NCBI GenBank assembly: GCA_947450025.1
Contig: CANFTW010000016.1
Location: 1-64,000, forward strand
Direction of reading: 5' to 3'
Origin: Bacteroidota bacterium
GTDB lineage: Bacteria > Bacteroidota > Bacteroidia > B-17B0 > Aurantibacillaceae
DNA: 64,000 nucleotides
The position numbers and the translations under genes are program-made. The notes under the pieces were generated by a model. It saw only the letters and a list, made by a program, of their open reading frames with translations, was not told the origin of the DNA and made no database searches. Shown piece by piece: positions 44,722-63,700 of this stretch. Within the stretch, counting starts at the first letter, position 1. Each line of letters opens with the position of its first letter.

Positions 44722-45285
44722 TTATAATATCATTTCTATCGCTTTTGGGAAATATTCAAATTCTAATTTTCTAATTTTTGCAGATAAAGATTCAGGAGTG
44801 TCTGTATCGTCAACCTTACATTTAGCTTGCAAAATCACTTCTCCTTTATCATATTCCTCATTGACATAATGAATTGTAATTCCACTCTCCACTTCTTGAT
44901 GCTCAATAACTGCTTGATGAACGCGTATGCCATACATGCCTTTACCGCCATATTTAGGCAATAAGGACGGATGAATATTAATGATTTTATTAGGGAATGA
45001 TTTAATGAATTGTTCAGGTACCTTCAAAAGAAATCCAGCTAATATGATGATATCAATTTTCTCTGTATTTAAAAATTCAATAATCTGAGAGGTATACTCA
45101 TTAAAGGCTGTTTTACTAATGATTTGAACATTTTTCTTATGTTTTTCTGCTCTTGCGATTACACCAGCTTGATCAGAATTAGTGACTACTAACTTTATTT
45201 TTACGCGCTTATCTTGATTAAAATAATTAAATAAATTTTCAGCATTAGTACCTTCTCCTGAAGCAAATATGGCAATGTTTTTCAT
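44722..45285 (-). CDS. purN: Phosphoribosylglycinamide formyltransferase
   Basis: PurN uses 10-formyltetrahydrofolate to formylate glycinamide ribonucleotide, the step after PurD. At 187 residues it has normal length. The N-terminus MKNIAIFASGEGTNAENL binds phosphate. The catalytic Asn and His lie in INIHPSLLPKYGGKGMYG near residue 105, and the acid lies in ITIHYVNEEYDKGEV. The gene is convergent with the secreted protein gene with no intervening base, and is followed upstream by a terminator from the giant adhesin gene. Confidence 0.96.
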   Translation of the reverse strand: MKNIAIFASGEGTNAENLFNYFNQDKRVKIKLVVTNSDQAGVIARAEKHKKNVQIISKTAFNEYTSQIIEFLNTEKIDIIILAGFLLKVPEQFIKSFPNKIINIHPSLLPKYGGKGMYGIRVHQAVIEHQEVESGITIHYVNEEYDKGEVILQAKCKVDDTDTPESLSAKIRKLEFEYFPKAIEMIL

Positions 45286-45381: not shown

Positions 45382-48300
45382 TTACTGATTTTGTCTAATA
45401 ACTGTCACGTGGCCAACATAAGGATGCTTGTTACCTCGTAAGTCATATACTGATAATTTGTAAATATAAACTCCTTGTGGTGCCAATTTCGAACCGCCTT
45501 TTAAAGTTCCATCCCAACCTCTTCTAAAGTTATTACTTGAGAATACATTCTCTCCCCATCTATCAAAAATATCCATACGATAATTTTCTTCATCGATACC
45601 AATACCCATTGGCTGGAAGATGTCATTCTTGTCGTTTCCATCTGGTGTAAAGGCATTTGGAATATATAATGCAAAGTCAGGCGTAATTTCTACTGCAACC
45701 ATCGCCGTATCTCTGCAACCTTTAATTGATGTAGCAATTAAATGCACACTATAAACTCCAACGTTATTGTAATAATGGCTTGGGTTTGTGGCTGAAGAAT
45801 TATTAGAACCATTAGCCGCAGAAAGATCACCAAAATCCCAGAAATAACTTACTGCACCTTGAGAGGTGTTGACAAAATTAATATTAGGATCTAAAATACT
45901 TGCTACTGGTGGATTTGCATAAAACGATGCAATAGGTTGTTTATTAATAATAATATAATTTGTTTTTATTTCAGAATTAGAACAACCTGTTGTCGTATTA
46001 GTAATTACTAATTTTACAGTGACAGAATCTGCTGTTGCAAAATTATACGTCACAGGGTTAGTTGTTCCCATCATATCTTTATCCTCGTAATACCAAGTGT
46101 ATGAATAGTTGCCAACTGAACCAGGTGTAGCAAGGAAATCAATATTAGCAGGAGCACATGCTTCTAAGGTGTTAGCCGTAAAAGTAACGGTTGGCAATGG
46201 ATTTGTGACAACTGTAAATACAGTTGCCCCATTAGGCATGGTGCAACCATCGCTTACGATTAATGATATCGTATTAGTTGTTAATCCTGATGGCGCATTG
46301 CCAACATACATTAAAGAGCTTGTATTTGCCGCTGTTGGATTCCATATATAATTATACGGACCACCATTGCCAGGGCTTGTAATTGTAGGGGTTAATAAGC
46401 CTGCTGCTCCATGACACAAGGTAATTGAATTTCCTATCACACTTAATTGAGGAGTTACATTGACCGTGATGATCTTAGGCGATGGAGAACATCCTCTTGT
46501 ATCACTCACGGAAACTGTATATGTTGTGGTAACTGTAGGATTAACGGTTTGTGGCCCTCCTCCGGTAAATGGATTAGGCGACCATGTATATGAGTAGGCA
46601 GGCGAACCACTTTGTCCTGATGCTGTTAATTGAGTCGTTTGACCATAACAAATAGTAGGATCAGGGCTTACTAATAATAATAGTAAGCCTGGTTGTGTAA
46701 CCACTATTTGTTGAGAAGTAGCGCAACCATAACTGTCTGTTAATGTAGCCGTGTATACACCTTGAGCAACACCTGAGATACTTTGAGTTAATGCAGAAGT
46801 TGTGACAGTTTGCGATATTGGATTAGACCAAACAACTGTGTATGGTGCTGTTCCTGATGTATAATTTACAGTAATATCACCATTAGATAATCCAAAACAA
46901 GATGGCTGAGTAACCACTGGTGCAGATAAAATAGGGCTTGGAGCATCTGCTACACTAACCGTTTGCGTGATTGAACAACCATTTAAATCGGTAATCACAC
47001 ACTGCCAGTTATTGCCTGGCGCCATATTAGTAGCAACCATTCCTTGCTGTGTTGGTGCTGTATTCCAATTTAATGTATACGTTGGTGTTCCGCCACCAAC
47101 CGTAACTGTTGCTGAACCATTTGATACGCCACATTTTGCAGGCACCGAAGTATATGATGAAATTAATACCGATGGTTCCAAAATAGTGAAGTTCGCATTT
47201 ATAGAACAGGTTTTCGAGTCAGTAACTGTTAAGGCATAATTTCCTGCAACTAATCCAATTAATACACCGTTATTTCCAGCTTGAGCTGGAGTCCAAACAT
47301 AATTATAACCCGGTGTACCACCCTGAACTGCCGTTGAGATCAATCCATTAGTTCCGCCAAAACAAGATATATTACTATAACTTGATGCAGACATGACTAG
47401 TGCTTGTGGTTGAGAAATCACCACTTGAGATGAAGCTGCACAACCATTGGCATCTGTAATTGTTCCTGTATAGGTATTTGCAGGGACATTCACTAAAACA
47501 GAGGATGTTTGCGCAGAGGATGTCCAAGAATAATAATAAGGACTAGTTCCACCGTTACCTAAAATTGTAGCTGAGCCATTACTTAAATTAAAACAAGAAA
47601 CATCTGTAAAACTACTAATTGCAGTAACCAATTGTGTTGGCTGAGTAATATTAACTGAGGCTGTTCCAACACAACCCGCAGCATCAGTAACTGTAATATT
47701 ATGAAGACCTGCTGAAAAATTAGACACGTTTTGTGTGGTCTGTCCGCTTGACCAAAATGCTGTCACAGAGCCAGTACCACCAGATATCAAAGTAGTAGCT
47801 CCTCCATTATTTCCTCCAAAACAACTCACGTTAGTTTGAGTAAGCACTGAAACTGTTGGGCCAGTAATATCATTAATTAAGCCACTTGCATTTGCTTTAC
47901 AACCATTATTATCTGTTACCGTAAATGAATAAGCGCCTGCTAAGACATTACTATTACATAAGGTGTTAATATTATTACTCCATAAATAAGTTAACGGAGA
48001 AGTTCCGCCACTAACTACCACGCAAGCCTTACCATTGGATTGTCCACAATTTGAATTTGTAGCACTTACTACAGCTGTTAATAGAGCTGGTTCAGATAAT
48101 GTAAAAGTTAAAACAGTTGGGCACGAGCCATTCGATGTAATCGAAACAGTTTGAGGTCCAACACATAAATTATTAACTGAGTTACCTGATTGCAATCCTG
48201 GCAACCATAAAAATGTTGTAACACCCGCTCCGCCTGCATAAGCAATATTAGCAGTCCCATCACATAGGCCATGACATTTAGGATCTGTTGTAGTTAATGT

Positions 48301-51300
48301 TGTGGCAAATGGTGCCGGCTCTAAAATCGTTGTGACAGTAGATGTCGAACATCCATTTGCATCACTAACGCTTACCGTATAACCTCCTGCTGCTAAATTA
48401 TTTGCATTTGATGAACTTCCTCCATTAGGTGACCATGTATATGTATATCCTCCTGTTCCACCAGATGAAGAAACTACCGCAAATCCATTATTACCTCCGT
48501 GACATGTTACACTTCCTGTAGAGGATATATTAGCAACTAATTGAGTTGGTTGAGAAATAATAACTTGTGCACTTGCGGTACAAGAATTTTGATCAGTCGC
48601 TAATAGTGTATAGGTTCCCGCACATAATCCTGTTGCTGAAGGCGCCATAATTGGATTAGAACCACCAATCCAGACGTAACCAACCGCTCCAATGCCATTA
48701 GTACTTGAAGCAACTGCTGTAGCATTACATGCATTAAAACAAGAAACATTAGTGGAAGTAATACTTGCTGCCATTGCGGGTGGATTTGCTAAAGCCATGG
48801 TAGATGCAACTGTACATCCATTAGCATCAGTGACAATTAAATTATAATTTCCTGCGCCCAATAAATTACTTGTTGATGATGTGCCGCCTAGTCCAGACCA
48901 AGAATAAGAATAGCCTGAAGTGCCGCCTAATGCTGAAGCAATACCGTAACCATTTATAGCTCCAAAACATTTAGGTTGAGAGGTCACAATTCCAACTGTT
49001 AAAGGGGTAGGTTGAGTAATAGTAACATTAGTTGAGGCCACACAACCTGCTTGATCCGTTACTGAAACTGTATAAATATTACTTGAAAGGTTTGGGGCAA
49101 TAGACGAAACGTTACCATTACTCCAAGAATAGATATATGGAGCAACTCCACCTGTTACCGATGTCGTTGCTATACCATTTGAACCGCCATAACAACTTAC
49201 ATTCGTTTGAGATGCAATACTAATCAATGGTCCTGCAGTATTTGGTATCGTTGCTGAAACCACCTGAATACAATTGTTAGCATCCTGAACATTAATGGTA
49301 TAAGTACCTGCTAATAAAGACCCTTGACTAGCTGCATTAGATCCCGAACTCCAAGTATAGGTATAGGCAGCTGAAGCTCCACCTGACGCAACCACTGTTG
49401 CTGAACCATTTGCTTGATTGCAATTAGCAGAAGTTACCGTTGATGTTAAAGTAATGGACGTAGGTTGAGTAACTGTAATCGTTTGACTAATAGAACATCC
49501 ATTAGCATCAGTTACAATACAATTATAATTACCAATTGGCACGTTGGATACCGTTGATAATGTACTAGGAATAGTTGGCCATAAATAATGATATGGACTA
49601 GTTCCACCCGTACCAGAGGCAGAAACTGTGCCTGTTGACGTTCCGTAACATTTCACATTATTGGAATTCATTACCATATTTAAAATACTTGGTTGAGTCA
49701 TCACTCCTGTAATGGTGGTTTTACATCCAAAAAAATCTGTAATTAAACAAGAATAATTTCCTGGGCTTAAATTAGTTGCTGTAGCGTTTGTTTGTGCACT
49801 TGGTGTCCAAGAGTAGGTATATGGTGCAGTGCCTCCAATTGGACTTGCCGTCATTGACCCGTCATTAGATCCATTACAAGTAACTGCGGATGAAGCAGAA
49901 ATTACGGCAGTCCCTCCAGGAGTAACACCAATGACTGCTTGACCAGAAATCACACATCCATTCATATCAGTTGCCGTAACAGTATAAGTTCCTGATGGTA
50001 ATCCATTAGAAACAGGCAACGCTCCGCCATTTCCTGTCCAAGTATACGTATAAATAGGTGTTCCACCTGTTACTGTAGCAGATCCAACACCGTTTGATGC
50101 TGTACAATTTGCATTTTGAGAAGATACGAAAATCGATAATGCAGATGGTTGACTAATCGTCACCGTTTGTGATGCAACACATCCATTGGCATCTTTAATT
50201 CCAACTGCATAGGTTGCAGCAAATTGGTTTGCAAATGAATTAGATGCCTGATAAGCGCCTCCATTAATATTATATGAATATGAAGGAGTTCCGCCTGAAC
50301 CAACAACATTTATAGTACCCGTTGCTGTTCCAAAACATTTTGCTTGTATAGAAGTTGGCGCTAATGTTAATAAAGCTGGCTCACTTATTACTGCCGTTGT
50401 TGTAGCGGTACACCCTGCAACATCCTTTATTATTACCGTGTAAGTGCCTGCAGAAAGTCCAGAAAAACTTCCAATGCCATTTGTTTGGTATGGAGAAGTT
50501 AAAGTATAAGTATATGGTGCACCGCTACCACCAGAACCTGATGCTGTTAGTCCTCCATTCGCTCCTCCAAAACAACTTGTATTAGTGGTACTTAATATAG
50601 ATGCTGTAGGCATTCCATTATTTAACACATTATAATTTACTGTTAAAGTACATGAATTCGCATCTTTAACAGTTACGGTATGAGTTCCTGCTAATAAACC
50701 GTTAGTGGTTGCTCCAACTGCAAACGCACCTCCATCAAATGAATATTGAAAAGTAGGAGTCCCTCCTGTTACAGCTGTTACTGTTGCAGTTCCATTTGCA
50801 CTTCCACAACTTGCATTTGAAGTATTGACAGTTATTGAAGATGGGCCGACAGTTGTTCCAATAATAAATGTAGTTGAATATATACATCCATTGGCATCAC
50901 TTACTAATACTGTATGAGTTCCTGCTGCTAATCCTGATGTTAAATTAGAAGTTGAAACACCATCCACACTATATGAATATATTGCAGTTCCACCTGTTAC
51001 TCCTGTTATACTATATGTTCCGTTAGACAATCCACATCCTGCTAAAGTAGTTGTTCCTGTAATCGCAGTTGGACCAGGAATATTTGTCACTGAAACTGTT
51101 CTGGTTAATACACAGCCTTTAAAATCAGTTACTGTAAGTGAATAAATGCCTGCTAAAGCTCCCGTTAAAATACTTGAAATTCCTCCATTACTCCAGTTAT
51201 AAGTATAAGCAGGGCTTCCTCCGCTAACCGTTACTATCCCTGAACCATTAGCATTCCCGCAAGTGGCAGGAGTTAGCGCAGATGTTAGCGTTAAAGAAGA

Positions 51301-54300
51301 AGGTTGTGTTACTGTAATACTTTTAGTAATTACACAACCATTAGCATCTGTTAGCGTAACGCTATATGTTCCTGCTGGCGCTGTAGTTACTGATGATAAC
51401 GTACTACTACCTAATGCTGGCCATAAATAGTTATAAGGTGTTACACCTCCACTTCCACTAGCTGTTACGGTTCCTGTTGATGTTCCAAAACAATTTGCTG
51501 GTAGAGAAGAAACTGTAAGAGTTAATGCTGATGGCTGTGTTAACGTAACGGAAGCTGTTGCTGTACACCCTGAATTATCTTTTACAGTTACAACGTAGGC
51601 GCCTGCTGGTAAACCTGTAAAAACACCTGTTGAATTAATTACAACTGGCGCAGTTAATGTATATGTAAATGGAGATGTTCCTCCAACAGGTGTAACGGTG
51701 AAACTTCCTGTATTAGCTCCATTACAAAGAATATTAACAGAATTAGTAACAGAGGCGGTTGGTCCACTATTATTTAATTCAGTATAAGTAACTGTTAAGG
51801 TACATGAATTAGCATCTCTAATGGTAACCGAATGGGTTCCCGCTGATAAACCAGAAACAGTTGTTCCTGAAGCAAAAGCTGATCCATCAAATGAATATTG
51901 ATAGGCAGGCAAACCACCTGTAACTCCAGTGATGGTAGCTGTTCCATTTGCTGTTCCGCAAGTAGCGTTTGTAGTGATAACTGTGGCAGATGTTGGACCG
52001 TTAGCTGTATTAATATTAAAAGTAGTACTAAATGTACATCCGTTTAAATCCTTAACTAAAACCGTATGAACTCCTGCAGCTAAACTTGAGGTTAAACTTG
52101 AGGTGGCAACTGCATCAACACTATACGTGTATGCTGGTGTTCCACCTGTTACTCCAGTAATATTATAGGTTCCATTAGATAATCCACAACCTGCAAGAGT
52201 CGTCGTTCCTGTAATAGCAGTTGGACCAGGTATGTTTGTTATCGTTACTGAGCTTGTTAGAACACATCCATTAAAATCAGTCACCGTTATCGAGTAGGTT
52301 CCTGCTGAAACTGAAGTTAATACATTCGTTAAATTTCCATTACTCCAATTATAATTATAAGGCGTTGTTCCACCACTTACTGTTACCGATACAGAACCAT
52401 TTGCATTGCCGCAGGTAGCTGGTGTTAAAGTAGACGTTAAGGTTAATAAAGAGGGCTGCGTCACTGTTACTGTTTTTGTAATAGCACACAAATTCGCATC
52501 TTTAATCGTGACTGTATAATTTCCTGCAACAGCCCCTCCAACAGATGGCAATGTACTATTTCCTAAACTTGGCCATAAATAAGTATATGGAGCTACACCT
52601 CCAGAGCCTCCTGCAGAAACAGTTCCCGTAGCATTTCCAAAACAATTTACAGGAAGCGAACTAACGGTTGCCGTCACTACTGAAGGCTGTGTTAAAATTG
52701 CTGTTACAGTTGCAGTACATCCTGCATTGTCTTTAACTGTTATACTATATGAACCTGCGAGTAAGCCTGTAAATGTTCCTGTAGTATTAGTTTGTGTTGG
52801 TGCGGTTAATGTATAGGTGTATGGTGAAGTTCCGCCTGTTGGAACAACACTTAAACTTCCTGTTGAAGCTCCATTACATGAAATATTAAGCAAACTTGAA
52901 ATAGAGGCAGTAGGCGGAGCATTATTGATAACATTATAGGTTACCGTTAAGGTACATGAATTTGCATCTTTAATAGTTACAGAGTGTGTGCCTCCAGATA
53001 AACCAGATGCTGACGTAGTTGTTCCATAAGCTCCACCGTCAAATGAATATTGATAAGCAGACAATCCTCCTGTTACTGATGTGACAGTTGATGTTCCATT
53101 TGAAGAACCGCAACTTGCATTCGTGGTAACGATGGTTGCAGCTGTTGGTCCATTTGCAGAACTGATATTAAATGTTGTACTATATGTACATCCATTTGCA
53201 TCTTTAACTAAAATTGTATGAGCACCTGCGCCTAATCCTGAAGTTAAACTTGATGTTGCTACTCCATCGACACTAAATGTATATGCAGCTGTACCACCAG
53301 TAACTCCGGTAACATTATAAGTTCCATTCAATAATCCACAACCGGCTAATGTTGTAGTACCTGTAATTGCTGTTGGACCTGGAATATTCACAATAGATGT
53401 GGTTTTTGTATATACACATCCATTAACATCTTTAACCGTTACAGAATAGGTTCCTGGCGCTAAGCCAGTTGCTGGTGATACTGCAGAAAAAGCGCCTCCA
53501 TTAATCGCATACGTATAAGGAGACGTACCTCCAACAGGAGATCCAAATGTGAAACTACCATTATTATTTCCACATGTCGCATTTGTTGGCGTCATGGTAA
53601 TATTAGTTAGACCAGGAGACATTGTTAATGTAGCTGACACTGTATACGTACATCCGTAATTATTAGTTAATGTAATAATAGGCAAGCTAGCTCCTAGGCC
53701 AGTAACAGTTTGGCCAGAGACTGCACCAATACTACTAGCAAAAGATGAAATAGTTTGTAATCCAAAAGATGTATTATTAATTACAATTATTCCATTATTA
53801 TTTCCACAGGTAGGATTAGTATAAGTTAAAGTTGCTGCAGGATTAGGTCTTATTGTAACCGAAACCACTGCTGTTGCAGGAGGGCAGCCTCCACTTCCTG
53901 GAACTGTATAGGTATAATTATAAGCACCTGCAGCTAAACCAGCTGGATTAAACGTACCCAAATAGCCTCCAGTTAATGCTGGAGCAGGTCCAGTCCAAGT
54001 TCCAGTTGTCGAAACTCCTGCACCTAAAAGAGCGTATAAATTAGATGTCGCAGCTGAATTACAAACAGCTAATGTATTGCTAACACCTGCGTAAGGACCT
54101 GGTGTTACTGTTACGCATCTAACGGTTGTGTAACTGCAACCAAAGTTATCGACCGCTGTTAACGTGTAACAATAGGTGCCTGTTGCAGTGGGTGTAATGA
54201 CAGCATTATTACCTGATGTAGAAGTAATATTAGCCCCACTCCATGACTGCGCAACAATGGTTGGAGTAAAAGATTGAGATGCAGGGACTGCTGCATTAAA

Positions 54301-55614
54301 ATTGATATCCCAATTAAAAATATAGCCATTATCTGACCCTAAATTATCTGTCACCTTAATTGTCCATGCTCCATTTAAAGGGCAGCCAACCAAACTACTA
54401 AAATTTCCAGTTGGAGAATATGTTCCAGCGGCAATAGATGTCATTGGTGGCGTTCCTTGACCTGCCACTGTTGGTCCATTACATAATAAAACAGTTCCCG
54501 ACATTGCAAAACAATAATTAGCACCTACTCCAGGGCCAACAGCAGGATCATCTAAAGGTGCGCCTAAATAATTGTATGCGCCACCTGGATAATCTTTTAA
54601 ATTACAAGTTTGACCATTAGGACATATAATTTGTATGGATAAATCTCCTTGATAAGAGTGCTCCATATTTAAACAAATATTATTTATATCTGCTGCAGAT
54701 GTTACTGTTTGCGCTGAACCAAAACAATCTACAACAATAGAGGTGCTATATGACAAACCAGAACCATCTGGTAAAAATGTTGTTCCGGAAATAGGTGGCG
54801 TACAGTTAGCAACGAAAGGTGTTGGTGTTACCGAACCTATTAATGTAGCCGATTGACCCAAACAAATACTAGTCGTTGATGTTGTTGTAGCTGAAAAAGA
54901 TGGGGTTGTTGAAACTTGAACTATTTGATTAAATTTATTATTATTGATACATCCACCTTTATTGATGTTTAAATTAACCACATATACACCAGGCGCAGTA
55001 TAGGTTGTGGTTGCAGAAGCCCCTGATCCAGTTAAGCCATTATCGAAATTCCAACTGTAACTAGCTCCAGTTCCACTTCCTGAAGAAAACGTTCCACTCC
55101 CGTTAAATGTTACTGACTGACCTTGACATATTTTAATAATTCCACCTGCTGGCGCTGGTACCGAGCTATTAAATACAGAATTAATGGTTTCACAAGGCAC
55201 AACACATGAAATAGTTGCAGCCCATCCTGCATTTTGAACACTGCCATCTGATGTAAATACAAACGTTAAACAGCCTGTTGTATTTGTAGCGGTTGCTTGA
55301 ACAGTCCCTGGTCCTAATAAACCTGTATAAGTACCAAGCGTTGGAGACGATGTATTTGGACCATTATAAATAGTCAAAAAATCATAATTATTCTCAAGAT
55401 CAAAAGATGTAAATATCATTTGTAGCTTATTACCAACAAGGGAAGGGCAAAAAGTCTTGGTAAATGTTTGACTAGCTCCGTATACAGCAGCGCTTCCGCC
55501 TGAATCATAAAAAGTTCCTGCGCAAGTATTTACTGAAACATTACTCATATTATACGTTTGAGCATTAACAAAAAGGATAATTAATATAAATAGTGAAGTG
55601 TATATTTTTTTCAT
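45382..55614 (-). CDS. Giant SprB-repeat surface protein, T9SS type B cargo
   Basis: A 3410-residue secreted protein. A signal peptide (1-18) is followed by a CUB domain (22-137), a PKD domain (about 155-235), a P-domain-like region (275-440), and about 31 SprB-type repeats of about 75 residues (roughly 600-2950). Each repeat has two Cys (NATCG- and DANGC-type motifs). PKD and Ig-like domains and a C-terminal gliding_CHU_C-type sorting domain follow, with YIPNAFTPDGNDKNDIF, MDIFDRWGENVFSS, GWDGT and GVYIYKL. It should be exported through the type IX system and held on the surface, possibly as an adhesin or gliding or matrix protein. It resembles SprB without clear orthology. Confidence 0.93.
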   Translation of the reverse strand: MKKIYTSLFILIILFVNAQTYNMSNVSVNTCAGTFYDSGGSAAVYGASQTFTKTFCPSLVGNKLQMIFTSFDLENNYDFLTIYNGPNTSSPTLGTYTGLLGPGTVQATATNTTGCLTFVFTSDGSVQNAGWAATISCVVPCETINSVFNSSVPAPAGGIIKICQGQSVTFNGSGTFSSGSGTGASYSWNFDNGLTGSGASATTTYTAPGVYVVNLNINKGGCINNNKFNQIVQVSTTPSFSATTTSTTSICLGQSATLIGSVTPTPFVANCTPPISGTTFLPDGSGLSYSTSIVVDCFGSAQTVTSAADINNICLNMEHSYQGDLSIQIICPNGQTCNLKDYPGGAYNYLGAPLDDPAVGPGVGANYCFAMSGTVLLCNGPTVAGQGTPPMTSIAAGTYSPTGNFSSLVGCPLNGAWTIKVTDNLGSDNGYIFNWDINFNAAVPASQSFTPTIVAQSWSGANITSTSGNNAVITPTATGTYCYTLTAVDNFGCSYTTVRCVTVTPGPYAGVSNTLAVCNSAATSNLYALLGAGVSTTGTWTGPAPALTGGYLGTFNPAGLAAGAYNYTYTVPGSGGCPPATAVVSVTIRPNPAATLTYTNPTCGNNNGIIVINNTSFGLQTISSFASSIGAVSGQTVTGLGASLPIITLTNNYGCTYTVSATLTMSPGLTNITMTPTNATCGNNNGSFTFGSPVGGTSPYTYAINGGAFSAVSPATGLAPGTYSVTVKDVNGCVYTKTTSIVNIPGPTAITGTTTLAGCGLLNGTYNVTGVTGGTAAYTFSVDGVATSSLTSGLGAGAHTILVKDANGCTYSTTFNISSANGPTAATIVTTNASCGSSNGTSTVTSVTGGLSAYQYSFDGGAYGTTTSASGLSGGTHSVTIKDANSCTLTVTYNVINNAPPTASISSLLNISCNGASTGSLSVVPTGGTSPYTYTLTAPTQTNTTGTFTGLLAGSYSITVKDNAGCTATVTAILTQPSVVTATVSSLPVNCFGNATGTVSAGGSGGVAPYTYLWPSLGNSTLPSVGGAVAGNYTVTIKDANLCAITKTVTVTQPSLLTLTSTLTPATCGNANGSVSVTVSGGTTPYNYNWSNGNLTNVLTSVSAGTYSITVTDFNGCVLTSSVTITNIPGPTAITGTTTLAGCGLSNGTYNITGVTGGTPAYTYSVDAVATSSLTSSLAAGVHTVLVKDLNGCTFSTTFNINTANGPTSATVITTNATCGTANGTATITGVTGGLPAYQYSFDGSAFASGTTVSGLSAGTHSVTIRDANSCTLTVTYTELNNSGPTASVTNSVNILCNGANTGSFTVTPVGGTSPFTYTLTAPVVINSTGVFTGLPAGAYVVTVKDNSGCTATASVTLTQPSALTLTVSSLPANCFGTSTGTVTASGSGGVTPYNYLWPALGSSTLSSVTTAPAGTYSVTLTDANGCVITKSITVTQPSSLTLTSALTPATCGNANGSGIVTVSGGSPAYTYNWSNGGISSILTGALAGIYSLTVTDFKGCVLTRTVSVTNIPGPTAITGTTTLAGCGLSNGTYSITGVTGGTAIYSYSVDGVSTSNLTSGLAAGTHTVLVSDANGCIYSTTFIIGTTVGPSSITVNTSNASCGSANGTATVTAVTGGTPTFQYSFDGGAFAVGATTNGLLAGTHTVTVKDANSCTLTVNYNVLNNGMPTASILSTTNTSCFGGANGGLTASGSGGSGAPYTYTLTSPYQTNGIGSFSGLSAGTYTVIIKDVAGCTATTTAVISEPALLTLAPTSIQAKCFGTATGTINVVGSGGTPSYSYNINGGAYQASNSFANQFAATYAVGIKDANGCVASQTVTISQPSALSIFVSSQNANCTASNGVGSATVTGGTPIYTYTWTGNGGALPVSNGLPSGTYTVTATDMNGCVISGQAVIGVTPGGTAVISASSAVTCNGSNDGSMTASPIGGTAPYTYSWTPSAQTNATATNLSPGNYSCLITDFFGCKTTITGVMTQPSILNMVMNSNNVKCYGTSTGTVSASGTGGTSPYHYLWPTIPSTLSTVSNVPIGNYNCIVTDANGCSISQTITVTQPTSITLTSTVTSANCNQANGSATVVASGGASAAYTYTWSSGSNAASQGSLLAGTYTINVQDANNCIQVVSATIPNTAGPLISIASQTNVSCYGGSNGIATTSVTGGVAPYIYSWSNGNVSSIAPNLSSNIYTVSVTDQAGCVASTNVTITQPTPLTVGIVTSQPKCFGAINGYGIASALGGTSGYSYSWSGLGGTSSTSNLLGAGNYNLIVTDANGCTVASTMALANPPAMAASITSTNVSCFNACNATAVASSTNGIGAVGYVWIGGSNPIMAPSATGLCAGTYTLLATDQNSCTASAQVIISQPTQLVANISSTGSVTCHGGNNGFAVVSSSGGTGGYTYTWSPNGGSSSNANNLAAGGYTVSVSDANGCSTSTVTTILEPAPFATTLTTTDPKCHGLCDGTANIAYAGGAGVTTFLWLPGLQSGNSVNNLCVGPQTVSITSNGSCPTVLTFTLSEPALLTAVVSATNSNCGQSNGKACVVVSGGTSPLTYLWSNNINTLCNSNVLAGAYSFTVTDNNGCKANASGLINDITGPTVSVLTQTNVSCFGGNNGGATTLISGGTGSVTAFWSSGQTTQNVSNFSAGLHNITVTDAAGCVGTASVNITQPTQLVTAISSFTDVSCFNLSNGSATILGNGGTSPYYYSWTSSAQTSSVLVNVPANTYTGTITDANGCAASSQVVISQPQALVMSASSYSNISCFGGTNGLISTAVQGGTPGYNYVWTPAQAGNNGVLIGLVAGNYALTVTDSKTCSINANFTILEPSVLISSYTSVPAKCGVSNGSATVTVGGGTPTYTLNWNTAPTQQGMVATNMAPGNNWQCVITDLNGCSITQTVSVADAPSPILSAPVVTQPSCFGLSNGDITVNYTSGTAPYTVVWSNPISQTVTTSALTQSISGVAQGVYTATLTDSYGCATSQQIVVTQPGLLLLLVSPDPTICYGQTTQLTASGQSGSPAYSYTWSPNPFTGGGPQTVNPTVTTTYTVSVSDTRGCSPSPKIITVNVTPQLSVIGNSITLCHGAAGLLTPTITSPGNGGPYNYIWNPTAANTSSLMYVGNAPSGLTTNTISLIVSDGCTMPNGATVFTVVTNPLPTVTFTANTLEACAPANIDFLATPGSVGNYSYTWYYEDKDMMGTTNPVTYNFATADSVTVKLVITNTTTGCSNSEIKTNYIIINKQPIASFYANPPVASILDPNINFVNTSQGAVSYFWDFGDLSAANGSNNSSATNPSHYYNNVGVYSVHLIATSIKGCRDTAMVAVEITPDFALYIPNAFTPDGNDKNDIFQPMGIGIDEENYRMDIFDRWGENVFSSNNFRRGWDGTLKGGSKLAPQGVYIYKLSVYDLRGNKHPYVGHVTVIRQNQ
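49921..53375 (-). repeat. Higher-order repeat, 1152 bp (384 residues), within the giant gene
   Basis: The module beginning PGPTAITGTTTLAGCG recurs with matching positions at 53375, 52223 and 51071, exactly 1152 bases apart each time. Each unit contains five SprB repeats of 74-79 residues. Two units are intact, and a third, more divergent unit runs to about 49918 and is about 1158 bases. The exact in-frame period indicates recent tandem duplication of whole five-repeat blocks. Confidence 0.85.
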
Positions 55615-56029: not shown

Positions 56030-56458
56030 AGTAATGGTTTAACACGATAAAATTAACGCTTTGTGCCAATTTTTAATAATTATTTAATAATTAGATAAGG
56101 TGATTCACTCGCTCAAAGCAAAAATCGCTTAGACGAAAACATTAAAAAAACGAGGATTTAATGGAATAAAGTAGTTATTTAATAACCGTGCGACCTAAAG
56201 TTTTATTGACACGCTTTTTTTGGTTTTCAAGAAGAATTAAAAACTCATAAATGTTCTTGTTCTTAAAAGAGGCTGATTGAATTAATTATATATGTTCTTT
56301 AAAAAGGCAACTAGTGCTTATTTAAGACTTTTTTATTTTCAACTCATTGAATTATGTTTTTTCTAGAATAGTAAATGTTTTTTGGAATGCTTATTAATTT
56401 GAGGTTAATACAAATTATTTAACTATTTTAAACATTAAATCAATCTTAAATAAAAAAT
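56030..56458. other. 429-base intergenic gap between the two giant gene units
   Basis: This stretch holds the dnaG 3'-end remnant at 56175-56305 and otherwise AT-rich sequence. I see no intact gene, tRNA, clear terminator or promoter with both boxes in it. The part 56306-56458 lies just downstream of the 1535-residue adhesin gene's stop codon. Confidence 0.7.
56175..56305 (-). pseudogene. Remnant of the 3' end of dnaG
   Basis: On the minus strand this encodes KNIYEFLILLENQKKRVN and TLGRTVIK before a stop, matching the C-terminus of the intact dnaG (NVYEFVILLENQKKRVN, ILGRTIIK). By eye about 80 of the 93 stop-proximal bases are identical, including a 37-base exact run (56201-56237, 61732-61768). 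A three-base deletion and an in-frame stop follow upstream, so it is not functional. It lies 5531 bases from the intact gene in the same orientation and brackets the 1535-residue adhesin and its small partner. Confidence 0.88.
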
Positions 56459-59400
56459 TTAATCATTATCTCTAATTACTGTTAAGTGGCCAACAAAAGG
56501 ATGTTTTCCACCCAGTAAATCTCTTACGAAAATCTTATATGTATAAACACCTTGAGGCGCTAACTTGGAATTTCCCTTTACAGTTCCATCCCAACCCTTT
56601 CTGAAATTACTACTTGAAAAAATATTTTCGCCCCATCTATCAAATATATCCATACGAAAACTATCTTCATCAATACCAACTCCTAAAGGCTGAAAAATAT
56701 CGTTTAATCCATTTCCATCAGGTGTAAATGTATTTGGAATATATAATGCAAAATCAGGAATAACTTCAATCACTATGTCTGCTGTGTCCTTACACCCTCT
56801 ATCAGAAGTAGCTATCAGATGAACAGTATAAGTGCCAGCATTGCTATATAAATAACTTGGATTTACTGCTACTGAATTATTTAAGCCATTTTGAGCATTA
56901 GGGTCTCCAAAATCCCAATTATAGCTATTTGCTCCCTGAGATGTATTTATAAAACTGATATTTGATTCATAAATAGTTGTTTTAGAAGGATTGGCATAGA
57001 AAGAGGCAATTGGTAAAGGATATACTTGAATATAATTTGGTTTGATAATATTGCTTAAACACCCTGTTGATGGATTGGTAACATTTAATGATACTTGATA
57101 ATATCCGGTATCAGTGAGTGTTACTATTTGAGGATTACCTGTTAATCCAAATTCTATCCACGAAAAAGTATCATTAATTCCATCAGAAGTAGCTGTTAAC
57201 GTTACCGTTAATGGTGCGCATCCTGCTCTAGGTATTGCAGTAAAATCTATAACAGGATTTGGATTTACATTTATGGTAAATACTGCTTGTCCTAATAGAA
57301 TTGAGCAATGATCATCTATAGTTACAGAATATTGATTTGGCCCTGTTATTGTTGCTATAACCGATATACTACTTGTAGTCGCTGAAGTTGTAGTTATTCC
57401 ATTGCTCCAAATAAAATCATAAAGCACTCCACTACTCTGACTCACAATATTTGGAGTTAGAACAACCGTTTCTCCTTCACATTTTGTTAACGAAAAACCA
57501 TTAACTGTATACTGAGAGGCTGAAACATTTACTACTACAGTCTGAATTGCAACACAACCTTGTCCATCGGTTATTGTAGCAATCCAGTTATTACCTGAAG
57601 GCATATTAACTGCAGTTGTACCAGTTGGGCTACCCGGTAAATTATTCCAAGTAACACTATAAGATGGTGTACCTCCTGTTATATTAATAGTAGCGCTACC
57701 ATTAGCACTTCCGCAGGAAGCAGGAGTAGAAGTGTATGTTGTTGTCAAAACACTGGGTTGATGTATCGTAAAACTTGTAGTTATAGAACAATTATTTACA
57801 TCCGTTACCGTTAAACTATATAAACCTGCTGCTAAATTATTCAGTATGCCACTATTAGTTGCTTGCGCGGGAGACCACACGTATGTATATAATGGAGAAC
57901 CGCCTTGAACAGTTGTTGATATTTGCCCATTAATGCCTCCAAAACAAGATACATCAGTAAAACTTGAAGAAGCAATAACCAACTGCGGTGGTTGAACAAT
58001 ATTTACAGATGCAGAGGCGATACAACCAGCTGCATCTGCAACAGATATATTATATATTCCTGAAGACAATCCACTAAAGACTCCGATTGTATTTGTTTGA
58101 ATAGATGAAACTATTGAATAGGTATATGGTGCACCTGCGCCTCCTGTTGGAATCGCCACAGTAAATGAACCATTAGCTAATCCAAAACATGTAACGTTTG
58201 AAAAACTGGTGATAGATGTTGTAGGACTTCCTAAACTAATTACATTATAGGTTACTGATAATGTACAAGTGTTTACATCTTTAATAATAACGGTATGTGA
58301 ACCTGCCGCTAAACTGGATGTATTAGCACTTGTTGTGTATGTTCCGCCATCATAAGAATAACTATATGTTGGTACACCACCTGTTACAATTGAAACAGTT
58401 GCTGTTGCATTTGATGTACCACAGCTAGCTGTTGATGCATTTACTGTTGCTGATGTAATACCAGCTGTTAATCCTACACTAAAAGTTGAAGAAAATGAAC
58501 ATCCATTTGCATCTGTTACTGATATAGAATGTGTTCCGGTTGCTAAACTTCCAAAAGTTGATGAAGTAGTTAATGCACCTCCATTTAGAGAATAACTATA
58601 TGTTGGAGTTCCTCCTGTTACACCCGTTACAGTGTATGAGCCAGTAGCGCCCGCACATGAAGCAGGACTTGCTGTTCCAGCAATGGAAGTTGGTCCAGTT
58701 ACGTTTACAATAGATGTCGTTTTTGTAAGTATGCAACCGTTAGCATCTTTAATAGTTACTGAATAAGTTCCAGGAGCTAATCCTGTTGTTGGTGAAGTTG
58801 CTGAAAATGCACCACCATTTATTGAATAACTATATGTTGGAGTTCCACCAACGGGTGAACCAAATGTAAAGCTACCGTTATTGTTTCCGCAAGTTGCATT
58901 TGTTGGAACAAGAGTAATACTAGTTGGTATAGGGGTCATTGTTAATGTAGTTGAAACAGTGAACGTACATCCTGAACTATTTGTTAAAGTGATTACTGGA
59001 GTTCCAGCTGCTAAACCTGTTACCGTTTGACCAGAAACAGAACCTAAACTACTTGCAAAAGAAGAAATAGTTTGCGCGCAACAAGATGTATTATTTATAA
59101 ATATTTGTCCGTTAGCATTTCCACAAGTTGGATTAGTAGCAGTTAAGGTTGCCAAAGGATTTGGATTTACTATTACGACATCTGTTGTTGTATTTACACA
59201 AACTCCGCTAGTTACCGTATGTGAAACGGTATATGTGCCTGGGGCTGTAAAACTTGCTCCAACATAATTTGTTTGTGTACTAGTAGCAGGAGACCCAATT
59301 GTTGGATTAAAACTATATGAATGAGCAGCAATAGCAGTTCCTGTGTTATTAAAACTAAAGCTATTTCCAACTAAACATTGCGTAGTTGCACCAGTAAAAG

Positions 59401-61066
59401 TAGAAGTAACTGTACCTGTTTGAATAATAGAAACTGTTTTTGTAATGATACAGCCTTTTGAATCTGAAGCGCTTAATGAATAAGTTCCTATGTTTAAACC
59501 ATTAGGGTTTTGAACGTTTGAACTAAAGGCGGGCGAACTAGTCCAGGTATAAGTATATGCGGGAGTTCCTCCAGCCAAAACTGTTGTTATAGAACCTAAA
59601 GTACTACAACTACTATTAATCGGCGTTACCGTTGCCGTTAAAGAACTTGGCTGTGTAACTGACATTGTAACCGTTTTGCTACAAAAATTTTTATCAACTA
59701 GAGTTAAAGTATAAGTTCCAATAGGTAAACTAGAGATGCTATTCGTAAGCCCTGTAACAACGGTATTAGTAGCGATAATACCACTAGGCCCTGTCCATGT
59801 AAAAACATAAGGCGCCTGAGATCCAGCGGCGCCAATAACCGCAGATGCTGTTATTGATCCATCAGAGCCCCCGAAACAGCTTGTTGGCGAAACTGTATAA
59901 GTTGGTGGGCAACACGCTAAAATAGCGTTAAAAGTTGTATTTGGATCACCTGCGCATCCTGCCGTAGCATAACCTCCACTTTCTCCATCACCACTGGTTC
60001 CAACTGTTACATTAAGATTATCTCCAGGATTACAAGTATTATTAACAGTCACTGAAAAACAAAATTTCCATTGGTTTGCAGGTACAGTAATTACTGCTCC
60101 TGAACTACTATAACCATCGCCAAAGTTATTTCCTGGATTACCATCGTTAATTGAACCACAACTTACAAACTGAGTTCCTGCAGCATTAGTATTATATGTT
60201 CCGTTAAAATAAAATCCAGGAGGCCAAGCTGTTGGTCCAATATTACTAGTTATGCCTGCTGGGTAATAACTCCATGTTCCACAAGATGAAGGGCAATTTA
60301 CTGAAGCAGGATTATTGTAGAAAGTAGTAGATAAGTATGGCGAAGGGGGAGTTGCTACAAGACTTCCTGCGTTCCAGCCTGGACCTAAACTTACTTGCAC
60401 ACCATGAAGCCAATTATTAGCTACTTGTGTCCATTTATCAATATGATAACAAAAATTAACTGTTTGGCCAGGATTATAGGACCCATTTAAGGGCAAAGGA
60501 TTTACGGTTAAACTTCCTGCATTTAAACAATCACTACAATCCTGATAAGCGTTTACAGCTAAATTGAATGTGCCACTTTGGCCCGTGTTACCGCTTATTT
60601 GTATATAATAAACATTGCCTGGCAAAAAACCAGACGAAATATTTAATGTTGCCGAGCCTCCTGAACCCACAATACAACCAACTCCGGTTAATCCAGAGCA
60701 CCCATTAACTCCTGCGGCTCCAGCATTCCATAAAGCAATATTTGGATTTGCTAACGCTGCGCCACCTCCAGAAACCACAATATTTATAGCTAAACCATTA
60801 GTTGGCATAGTAAATTTATACCACACACTATTTGCTGGTGAAGCCATACCACATCCCGCTAGAGAAACATAAGGATTTTCCGCGGTTGCTGCTACATTTG
60901 TTGTTCCTAAATTGGTGATTAATCCGTTTTTTATACCTGAACCACAAGCGCCCGGATTACCCAATGTCCCTAAATTAATAGCTCCTGAACAATCATCATT
61001 TGCTGGTTGTGCAAATAAACTAATTATTGAAATAGATAATATTAATGTTAAAATTACTTTTTTCAT
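56459..61066 (-). CDS. Giant SprB-repeat surface protein, paralogue, T9SS type B cargo
   Basis: A 1535-residue secreted protein. A signal peptide (1-19) is followed by a beta-sandwich N-terminal domain (about 20-180, with SVWYKFTMPTNG and NVYYIQISGNTGQSGTF) and a second Cys-rich region (180-385). About nine SprB-type repeats follow (390-1180), then PKD-like domains (with YNWDFGDPNAQNG) and a type B sorting domain with YIPNTFTPDGNGLNDIF and MDIFDRWGENIFSS. The C-terminal 100 residues and several repeats are very close to the 3410-residue protein, so they are paralogues. Likely a surface adhesin exported by the type IX system. Confidence 0.92.
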   Translation of the reverse strand: MKKVILTLILSISIISLFAQPANDDCSGAINLGTLGNPGACGSGIKNGLITNLGTTNVAATAENPYVSLAGCGMASPANSVWYKFTMPTNGLAINIVVSGGGAALANPNIALWNAGAAGVNGCSGLTGVGCIVGSGGSATLNISSGFLPGNVYYIQISGNTGQSGTFNLAVNAYQDCSDCLNAGSLTVNPLPLNGSYNPGQTVNFCYHIDKWTQVANNWLHGVQVSLGPGWNAGSLVATPPSPYLSTTFYNNPASVNCPSSCGTWSYYPAGITSNIGPTAWPPGFYFNGTYNTNAAGTQFVSCGSINDGNPGNNFGDGYSSSGAVITVPANQWKFCFSVTVNNTCNPGDNLNVTVGTSGDGESGGYATAGCAGDPNTTFNAILACCPPTYTVSPTSCFGGSDGSITASAVIGAAGSQAPYVFTWTGPSGIIATNTVVTGLTNSISSLPIGTYTLTLVDKNFCSKTVTMSVTQPSSLTATVTPINSSCSTLGSITTVLAGGTPAYTYTWTSSPAFSSNVQNPNGLNIGTYSLSASDSKGCIITKTVSIIQTGTVTSTFTGATTQCLVGNSFSFNNTGTAIAAHSYSFNPTIGSPATSTQTNYVGASFTAPGTYTVSHTVTSGVCVNTTTDVVIVNPNPLATLTATNPTCGNANGQIFINNTSCCAQTISSFASSLGSVSGQTVTGLAAGTPVITLTNSSGCTFTVSTTLTMTPIPTSITLVPTNATCGNNNGSFTFGSPVGGTPTYSYSINGGAFSATSPTTGLAPGTYSVTIKDANGCILTKTTSIVNVTGPTSIAGTASPASCAGATGSYTVTGVTGGTPTYSYSLNGGALTTSSTFGSLATGTHSISVTDANGCSFSSTFSVGLTAGITSATVNASTASCGTSNATATVSIVTGGVPTYSYSYDGGTYTTSANTSSLAAGSHTVIIKDVNTCTLSVTYNVISLGSPTTSITSFSNVTCFGLANGSFTVAIPTGGAGAPYTYSIVSSIQTNTIGVFSGLSSGIYNISVADAAGCIASASVNIVQPPQLVIASSSFTDVSCFGGINGQISTTVQGGSPLYTYVWSPAQATNSGILNNLAAGLYSLTVTDVNNCSITTSFTIHQPSVLTTTYTSTPASCGSANGSATINITGGTPSYSVTWNNLPGSPTGTTAVNMPSGNNWIATITDGQGCVAIQTVVVNVSASQYTVNGFSLTKCEGETVVLTPNIVSQSSGVLYDFIWSNGITTTSATTSSISVIATITGPNQYSVTIDDHCSILLGQAVFTINVNPNPVIDFTAIPRAGCAPLTVTLTATSDGINDTFSWIEFGLTGNPQIVTLTDTGYYQVSLNVTNPSTGCLSNIIKPNYIQVYPLPIASFYANPSKTTIYESNISFINTSQGANSYNWDFGDPNAQNGLNNSVAVNPSYLYSNAGTYTVHLIATSDRGCKDTADIVIEVIPDFALYIPNTFTPDGNGLNDIFQPLGVGIDEDSFRMDIFDRWGENIFSSSNFRKGWDGTVKGNSKLAPQGVYTYKIFVRDLLGGKHPFVGHLTVIRDND

Positions 61067-61082
61067 AGAAAATAAATTCCGG

Positions 61083-61460
61083 TTAATATTTATAAGACGG
61101 ATTTCTTGGTGTTTCAGCTCCTAACTGACCATTTGAATAAATAGTGAATATTGGTAAAATGTAGTCTTTTGGGAAAGAATCTTTATAATTATTTACTTCA
61201 ATACTAATCCCTTTTAAAAATAAAGACTTTGCTGAATACATAACACATTCAAAGCCATCTTTAAACTTCAAAACAACATCTGATTCTTTCAAACGATAGG
61301 TTTCCATAGAGGCAGCTAAGATACTATTCTCATAAAATGATGTCTTTGATTTATCGAAATCTCCTTGAAGAACAAAACTATTTGGCAAAGTTTTGAGTTG
61401 ACAAAATACGTTACCCTTAAAAACTAAAAAAAAATAAATAATCCATTTCGCTTTTTTCAT
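61083..61460 (-). CDS. Small secreted protein upstream of the second giant gene
   Basis: I chose the ATG at 61460, which begins a signal peptide (MKKAKWIIYFFLVFKGNVFC, cleavage near CQLKT). The upstream in-frame extension is not typical. The mature part (about 105 residues) is mixed beta/alpha with no known domain and ends in TPRNPSYKY. It stops 16 bases before the giant gene start, so co-transcription is likely. It is not visibly similar to the small protein of the other unit, though both occupy the same position. Confidence 0.7.
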   Translation of the reverse strand: MKKAKWIIYFFLVFKGNVFCQLKTLPNSFVLQGDFDKSKTSFYENSILAASMETYRLKESDVVLKFKDGFECVMYSAKSLFLKGISIEVNNYKDSFPKDYILPIFTIYSNGQLGAETPRNPSYKY

Positions 61461-61705
61461 AATAATTTGAAATAATTTACATATATCAAATATAAGATAA
61501 TTATAAAAAATCGATTGCTTTTTTAATAACCAAGAATACGTGTGCACTCATTAATAAACCTAGATCATCTTAATTCTTTAGATTATTATAGAATTTTTAT
61601 ATAACACACAAATAGTGAAGTTAGATAAAAACTGCCACAAAGTAGATTAAAAGTATAAAAATGAAGAACCTACCGTACAATCGAATAAGAAATTTGAACC
61701 AAGTG

Positions 61706-63700
61706 CTACTTAATAATAGTTCTTCCTAAAATTTTATTGACACGCTTTTTTTGGTTTTCAAGAAGAATCACAAACTCATAAACGTTTTTGTTCTCAAAAG
61801 GATCAGCTGTTTTAATTAATTCTTTAGCTTCTTTAAGAATTTGACTTAATCTTTTTTCTTTTAAACTAAATAATTGATGTTCAATTCCTTTCTTTATAAA
61901 ATGAACTTCTTGTGGAACATTGACCCCAAACTTTTCCCATTTGTAGCTAACGGTATCCGAAAAAGAAGCGATATCTATAGCAACTTGAGAAACTGCAGGA
62001 TTTGAATGATGAATAAATGTTTGCAACGTAGGAATAATGCCATTTTCTAATTCATGATGAAATTCATCTAATACCATTTGATAAATAGGATTAATAAATT
62101 GCAGATTATCTCTCCATAATTCAAAAATCACAAACTCACATACTGTTAACTGAAAAGATTGTTCGGTGTGATCTGTATCCTCTGCTTCAACATCCACTAA
62201 AACATTTCCATACTGCATCATCATGCGCAGTAATTCCTTCTCTTCACTATCCAATATTGGATCTTTCACTTTTTCTTCTTCTAAATACGTATCTAGAGGA
62301 ATATCATCAATTGGGTAATTACCTTGCTGTTGATTGTCTTTTTGTACTGAAGGTGCAGTTTTACCGGTTTTTTTACGAATGAGTTTATTGATTTCAATTT
62401 GTAAAACCTGTTCGCTAATGTCCATGATTCGCGAACATTCCTTTACATATACCGAACGGTTAATCGCATCTGGAATCACCGAAATACTTTCAACGATATC
62501 TTTAATTAATTCAGCGCGCTTAATGGGATCGTGTTCAACTTCTTTATAAAGTAAGCTCGTTTTAAAAGCAATAAAATCTTTGCTATTGATTTTAATAAAC
62601 TCTTTAAACTCTTCATTAGTTACTTTTTTACTATAAGAATCCGGATCATCGCCGTCAGGAAACAACAGTACTCTTACATTCATCCCCTCTTCCAAAATCA
62701 AATCTATTCCTCTAAAACTAGCTTTAATACCAGCCACATCACCATCATATAAAATGGTAATATTTTTAGTAAAGCGATGAATTAATTTGATTTGTTCAAC
62801 CGTTAACGATGTTCCTGAAGATGCTACTACATTTTCGATACCAGATTGATGCATCGAAATCACATCCGTATAACCTTCAACTAAATAACAGTTATCATCT
62901 TGTATAATAGTTTTCTTTGCTTGAAACAAGCCATACAAGGTTTTACTCTTATCGTAAATATCGGTTTGCGGAGAGTTAATATACTTCGCTAATTTTTTAT
63001 CGCTCGTTAAAATTCTACCTCCAAAACCAATGACCTTTCCAGATATATTATGAATTGGGAACATCACACGACCTGTGTATCTATCAAAAATATCTTTCTC
63101 TGTTATTGGAGTTCCTTCTACATGATTATTTGATAAAATCGACATCCCAGTCTTTACCAAATACTCAGGCTTGTAACCATTCTTCACCGCTGTTTCCGAA
63201 AACTTGCGCCTCTCTTCCGAACTATAACCTAAATTAAATTTATCTATCGTTGCTTGTGAAAACCCTCTTTCTTTAAAATAGCCTAACCCAATAGAACGAC
63301 CTAAATCATCGTTCATCAACAAATCAGCAAAATACTTTTGCGCGTATTGCATCACAATGTATAAACTTTCTTTTTCGTTTTGTTGCGCTTTTTCTTCTAC
63401 ACTTATCTCCTTCTCTACAACCTCGATTCCATATTTATTTGCCAAATACCTTAAAGCCTCTGGATAAGATAAACTCTCCAAATCCATAATAAAATTAACA
63501 GCTGTACCTGATTTACCACATCCAAAACATTTGTAAATTCCTTTAGCAGGCGATACTGTAAACGAAGGCGATTTCTCGCCATGAAAAGGACATAATCCTA
63601 ATAAATTAGCTCCCCGCTTTTTTAGGGTAATAAAATCACCAATCACGTCCTCTACTCGAGCCGCATCAATAATTTTATCTATCGTTAATTTAGGTATCAA
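61706..63700 (-). CDS. dnaG: DNA primase
   Basis: DnaG makes RNA primers for replication at the fork. The 664-residue protein has an N-terminal CHC2-type zinc finger (CPFHGEKSPSF...CFGCGKSG, about 37-65), the RNA polymerase domain with the toprim acids (YLVEGYTDVISMHQ and ILYDGDVAGIKAS, about 260-325), and a C-terminal helicase-binding region. The start is TTG, giving the conserved MIPKLTIDKIID. No ATG is possible before an in-frame stop. Its last 134 bases are duplicated at 56175. Confidence 0.96.
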   Translation of the reverse strand: MIPKLTIDKIIDAARVEDVIGDFITLKKRGANLLGLCPFHGEKSPSFTVSPAKGIYKCFGCGKSGTAVNFIMDLESLSYPEALRYLANKYGIEVVEKEISVEEKAQQNEKESLYIVMQYAQKYFADLLMNDDLGRSIGLGYFKERGFSQATIDKFNLGYSSEERRKFSETAVKNGYKPEYLVKTGMSILSNNHVEGTPITEKDIFDRYTGRVMFPIHNISGKVIGFGGRILTSDKKLAKYINSPQTDIYDKSKTLYGLFQAKKTIIQDDNCYLVEGYTDVISMHQSGIENVVASSGTSLTVEQIKLIHRFTKNITILYDGDVAGIKASFRGIDLILEEGMNVRVLLFPDGDDPDSYSKKVTNEEFKEFIKINSKDFIAFKTSLLYKEVEHDPIKRAELIKDIVESISVIPDAINRSVYVKECSRIMDISEQVLQIEINKLIRKKTGKTAPSVQKDNQQQGNYPIDDIPLDTYLEEEKVKDPILDSEEKELLRMMMQYGNVLVDVEAEDTDHTEQSFQLTVCEFVIFELWRDNLQFINPIYQMVLDEFHHELENGIIPTLQTFIHHSNPAVSQVAIDIASFSDTVSYKWEKFGVNVPQEVHFIKKGIEHQLFSLKEKRLSQILKEAKELIKTADPFENKNVYEFVILLENQKKRVNKILGRTIIK

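Follow-up and report, generated by a model that had tools for sequence, protein, structure and literature searches.

The 3' end of the primase gene dnaG is present twice in the window (the whole 64,000-nucleotide stretch analysed here), and this repeat is probably the trace of an adhesin cassette that was added by recombination within the dnaG 3' end. The incoming cassette, which we call type B, would have brought a replacement end for dnaG, leaving the old end displaced beside a cassette of another type, type A. On the minus strand the genes run in the order dnaG, s1, adh1, remnant of dnaG, s2, adh2 and purN (Table 1).

Table 1. Features of the window and occupancy of the two adhesin sockets in the genus
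Feature	Position or genome	Strand	Support or relatives
purN (formyltransferase), other border of the socket	44722..45285	-	
adh2, 3410-aa type-A adhesin: CUB and P-proprotein N-terminus, SprB repeats, CHU_C	45382..55614	-	
s2, small secreted-type partner of the type-A cassette, 136 aa	55619..56029	-	11 homologues in genus
Upstream region of the resident type-A cassette; GAGTGAA motif at -82	56030..56174	-	
Displaced non-functional remnant of the dnaG 3' end, stop codon included	56175..56305	-	
AT-rich segment (GC 0.20) from the adh1 stop to the remnant; putative illegitimate junction near 56305/56306	56306..56458	-	
adh1, 1535-aa type-B adhesin: SprB repeats, PKD, CHU_C T9SS type B sorting domain	56459..61066	-	N-terminus 69% to G002, 47-51% to G008/G015/G016
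s1, small secreted-type partner of the type-B cassette, 125 aa, ATG start	61083..61460	-	homologues adjoin type-B adhesins in G002, G008, G015, G016
Upstream region of the type-B cassette; GAGTGCA motif ~90 bp before the s1 start, TAnnTTTG-like box; putative promoter	61461..61705	-	
Functional copy of the repeated dnaG 3' end; exact 37-bp core at 61732-61768	61706..61839	-	
Intact dnaG (DNA primase) with functional 3' end (probable replacement)	61706..63700	-	Pfam and NCBIfam TIGR01391
rpoN-socket type-A adhesin of the genome under study	G000:C3 244158-252553 (L095:4659-13054)		
dnaG-purN socket, type A (s2/adh2)	G004, G008, G014, G018/G013		
dnaG-purN socket, type C	G017		
dnaG-purN socket, type E	G016		
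dnaG-purN socket, dnaG side only visible	G001, G005 (type A), G006 (type F)		
dnaG-purN socket, no cassette: dnaG-TPR-purN	G012		
Type-C cassette adjoining purN	G011 (sister species)		
rpoN-lepA socket, type B (s1/adh1-like)	G016, G008		
rpoN-lepA socket, type D	G017		
rpoN-lepA socket, type A	genome under study		
Type A adjoining rpoN	G012		

An earlier note on this DNA had described a copy of the last 131 bases of dnaG lying 5531 bp away in the same orientation, with a stop codon and a 37-base exact core, and the alignment bears this out. The remnant matches the dnaG end over 131/134 bp with 82% identity and one 3-bp gap, and a search of the whole 3.2-Mb genome returned it with E=1.6e-31. 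The longest exact run (56201-56237, equal to 61732-61768) would be expected with P=0.003 if the mismatches were placed randomly. Both copies include a stop codon, TAG in dnaG and TAA in the remnant. With its in-frame TAA and 3-bp deletion the remnant encodes no primase end, and hence it cannot be functional. On the 3' side the homology ends exactly at the stop codon, beyond which the flanks align no better than shuffled sequence (718/1000). On the 5' side it ends at about 131 bp and is at chance level thereafter (173/1000 shuffles); a longer remnant was considered and rejected, the extension being not significant. A duplication introduced by the assembly is unlikely, because the copy is 18% diverged, the contig measures 68 kb and the genome is estimated to be 99.96% complete. 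No second dnaG end was found in 19 other genomes of the genus, a comparison of species and not of strains.

The two giant adhesins with small partners are as the earlier note described. SprB repeats and a T9SS type B sorting domain (CHU_C/TIGR04131) are present in both, and their surface display is predicted. (The genome as a whole, G000, has 45 CHU_C matches, 37 of them above the cut-off, a large T9SS type B protein set.) One correction concerns the small partners, since the 136-aa and 154-aa calls belong to different families: neither s1 nor s2 has a Pfam or NCBIfam match, and the two show no similarity to each other. The 154-aa call for s1 begins at an upstream GTG; its homologues agree with the ATG at 61460, which gives 125 aa. 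The homologues of s2, one of them in the same genome, precede type-A adhesins in every case examined; its predicted structure is of low confidence (mean pLDDT 55.8). No relative was found for the 153-bp segment between the adh1 stop and the remnant, and a plasmid search with adh1 gave only partial matches below 60% identity.

Comparison with other species separates the two cassettes. The pair formed by s1 and the adh1 N-terminus matches linked gene pairs in G002, G008, G015 and G016, not s2/adh2; s1 tracks the same set of species as the adh1 N-terminus, and two of these linked pairs occupy the rpoN-lepA socket. With the type-B adhesins of that socket adh1 is collinear over its first ~1050 residues, and it then skips to their ends.

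A survey of 20 genomes of the genus (MAGs of uncultured Bacteroidia) gives these types their context. A small protein and a giant SprB-repeat/T9SS adhesin form a cassette that recurs at two conserved sockets, dnaG-purN and rpoN-lepA, and its type varies by species at both, even between sisters: B followed by A here, C in G011, whose dnaG is on a separate contig from the purN-side cassette, a contig that stops 31 bp past the dnaG stop codon. As a rule a single cassette occupies the dnaG-purN interval, in many cases after a TPR-SpoIIE gene. Three genomes show the dnaG side only, because their contigs stop inside the adhesin (G001, G005, G006), and five (G002, G007, G009, G010, G015) have no cassette of the SprB/small-partner kind after dnaG. 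Further type-B pairs are found in G002 and G015. The socket survey thus places the other known members of the type-B family elsewhere, while the dnaG socket of the window holds two types consecutively. The synteny comparison proposed in the earlier note agrees with this, at the level of species: G014 has dnaG-s2-adh2-purN without an extra cassette, and the site in G012 is empty. Adhesin cassettes are thus probably exchanged at the dnaG-purN socket. In many relatives a TPR-SpoIIE gene separates dnaG from the cassette; the genome under study lacks it at this position, and a TPR-SpoIIE protein about 35% related to it is encoded at 38667-40667 of the window.

In G008 an orphan adhesin C-terminus of 225 aa (L039:5222-5899) lies between the TPR-SpoIIE gene and the s2 of a type-A cassette. 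It matches the type-E adhesin of G016 best (80%), and it is a fossil of another cassette in the dnaG-purN socket. Because of this orphan, two consecutive cassettes may have arisen more than once there.

The upstream regions of the cassettes share a short element, approximately A(A/C)(T/C)GAGT(G/A)(A/C)A, located ~81-99 bp before the first gene in 15 of the 20 cassettes with an upstream region available. It spans all cassette types and both sockets, the cassette of sister G011 included, and several cassettes that have it also carry a TAnnTTTG-like box closer to the start. In the window it lies at about 61550 and 56111 on the minus strand, and it also precedes cassettes at loci L035-L039, L042, L043, L072, L073, L095-L097, L099 and L108. 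The element is possibly the site of a shared regulator. A genome-wide regulon with the motif at the same spacing was rejected (8 matches against 6 in the control).

The direction of events was approached by scoring the differences between remnant and dnaG against the dnaG of 16 relatives. Upstream of the exact core, 13 of the 16 differences fall at codon positions 1-2, in addition to the 3-bp loss, and 11 of the 16 remnant bases never occur in relatives; read from this codon pattern, the differences are decay. Upstream of the last codons only ~4/35 third positions differ from dnaG, as though this part had been the same allele before it decayed. A different picture emerges in the final 27 nt (stop included), with six of eight differences synonymous and, outside the stop codon, 6/7 of the differing remnant bases present in relatives, so that, with few sites (8 differences), this stretch resembles two functional alleles. 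As to whether the repeats were identical at the time of insertion, the few sites give a mixed picture: the last 27 nt look like different alleles, the remainder like a single allele that has since decayed. The pattern fits, again on few sites, a dnaG that gained a new end while the old one stayed beside s2. The gene as a whole groups with that of sister G011, but in the last 700 bp (the 3' third) their identity at third positions is 0.52, down from 0.71, the largest such drop among 136 pairs (~3.2 standard deviations). This is as expected if an exchange had taken place in one of the two lineages; the change could lie in G011 instead.

We propose the following course. The dnaG-purN socket would at first have held the type-A cassette behind dnaG. 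A type-B cassette preceded by its own dnaG 3' end, from a relative with that same order, would have entered through recombination inside the dnaG 3' end; the incoming end would have completed the gene, and the original end would have moved 5.5 kb downstream beside the type-A cassette and decayed there. One junction may have formed by homology and the other illegitimately near 56305/56306. Integration of a circle by one crossover in the core would give the same product. Expression was presumably unaffected, since each cassette keeps its own upstream region. A donor with the type-B cassette directly after dnaG was not found among the relatives examined.

The earlier note had offered tandem duplication of a dnaG-end and adhesin unit, with later divergence, as one of two explanations. 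Both halves indeed have the same gene order, and the adhesin stalks resemble each other, with 68-71% DNA identity across their longest blocks. Yet the small partners are unrelated in sequence, each cassette is of its own type and has its own relatives in other species, for the type-B pair even in another socket, and the flanks of the two dnaG ends fail to align although the remnant itself still does. The two units do not display the common descent within the lineage that such a duplication entails, which leaves it highly unlikely. We consider it unlikely, too, that a dnaG-end/type-A unit was duplicated in tandem and its first copy then replaced by type B, with homologous recombination acting at dnaG and in the conserved stalk of the adhesin. 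This would explain why the remnant decays like the same allele upstream of its last codons, as well as the differing N-termini and partners at the dnaG-purN socket in G011, G016 and G017. It requires two events instead of one, however, and neither the 3' flanks of adh1 and adh2 nor the regions upstream of s1 and s2 are similar. Moreover, the C-terminus of adh1 shares 66% identity with that of adh2 and as much as 68% with those found in other species. By contrast, adh2 and its type-A counterpart in the rpoN socket of this genome reach 80% at their C-termini, above the likeness of either to other species, a possible within-genome homogenisation of the two type-A adhesins.

Integrative elements insert in gene 3' ends, among them those of tRNA genes, guaA and prfC. 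The other explanation in the earlier note compared the module with such elements, and its core, insertion with a replacement dnaG end, is supported by the codon pattern, by G014 and G012 and by the lack of a remnant elsewhere; the likeness to integrative elements is formal only. In the window, as in these elements, the gene keeps a functional replacement end, the old end lies beyond the insert and an identical core is shared, a geometry that a site-specific element with attL/attR-like repeats and an integrase since lost would leave. Unlike in these elements, there is no integrase and no defined att core, and the homology goes past the exact core in both directions. The note's remark that no integrase is visible holds: integrase, transposase, tRNA and mobility genes are absent among the genes examined around the insert, whose content is the single pair of s1 and adh1, neither of which matches an integrase. 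The dnaG homology runs ~70 bp upstream of the core and is not limited to a core plus replacement end, which argues for recombination, homologous or illegitimate, at a socket for adhesin exchange. In G008 and G016 the type-B relatives sit in the rpoN-lepA socket, where the flanking genes are not repeated, and duplicated rpoN, lepA, dnaG or purN ends that would mark an insertion are absent from the sockets of the relatives. An element of this kind is therefore very improbable. Addition of the type-B cassette by recombination within dnaG is the reading we retain.

Among known systems, the closest pattern appears to be insertion with long target duplication, described for restriction-modification genes of Helicobacter pylori (Nobusato et al. 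2000, as cited in PMC1643837 and PMC3031569). As far as those citing accounts go, the likeness lies in a unit between long direct repeats of the target sequence, which is what flanks the insert here, with no evident integrase or transposase, and in repeats that permit later loss or amplification. The differences, on the same accounts, are that the cargo here is a T9SS adhesin pair and the target the end of a core gene, and that the copies have diverged, the functional end showing signs of a replacement allele and not of a duplicated target. The adhesins share SprB repeats and the CHU_C/TIGR04131 sorting domain with SprB of Flavobacterium johnsoniae, a T9SS adhesin with a type B CTD (PMC9143113). 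Unlike in the SprB/SprF system, the adjoining partner is a small protein of no known family and not a PorP/SprF-like barrel, and the N-terminal types vary among species at two chromosomal sockets. A PorP-like gene was not present among the neighbours examined, and our literature search found nothing direct on exchange of SprB cassettes.

The direct repeats would permit a putative loop-out that leaves dnaG intact. We think it quite improbable that they are a working switch, in which recombination between the copies loops the type-B cassette in and out with dnaG always intact; if they were, the tail of a core gene would be a homology arm for swapping surface adhesins. The probable addition of the type-B cassette means that one step of adhesin exchange has been caught, in which the fossil indicates an incoming cassette that was added, not swapped, and the crossover region was a core gene's end. 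Two fixed chromosomal sockets, in which the N-terminal adhesin types are interchangeable and the small partners match them, offer a testable route to altered surface binding, by which these uncultured freshwater and groundwater Bacteroidia could change the surfaces that they bind.
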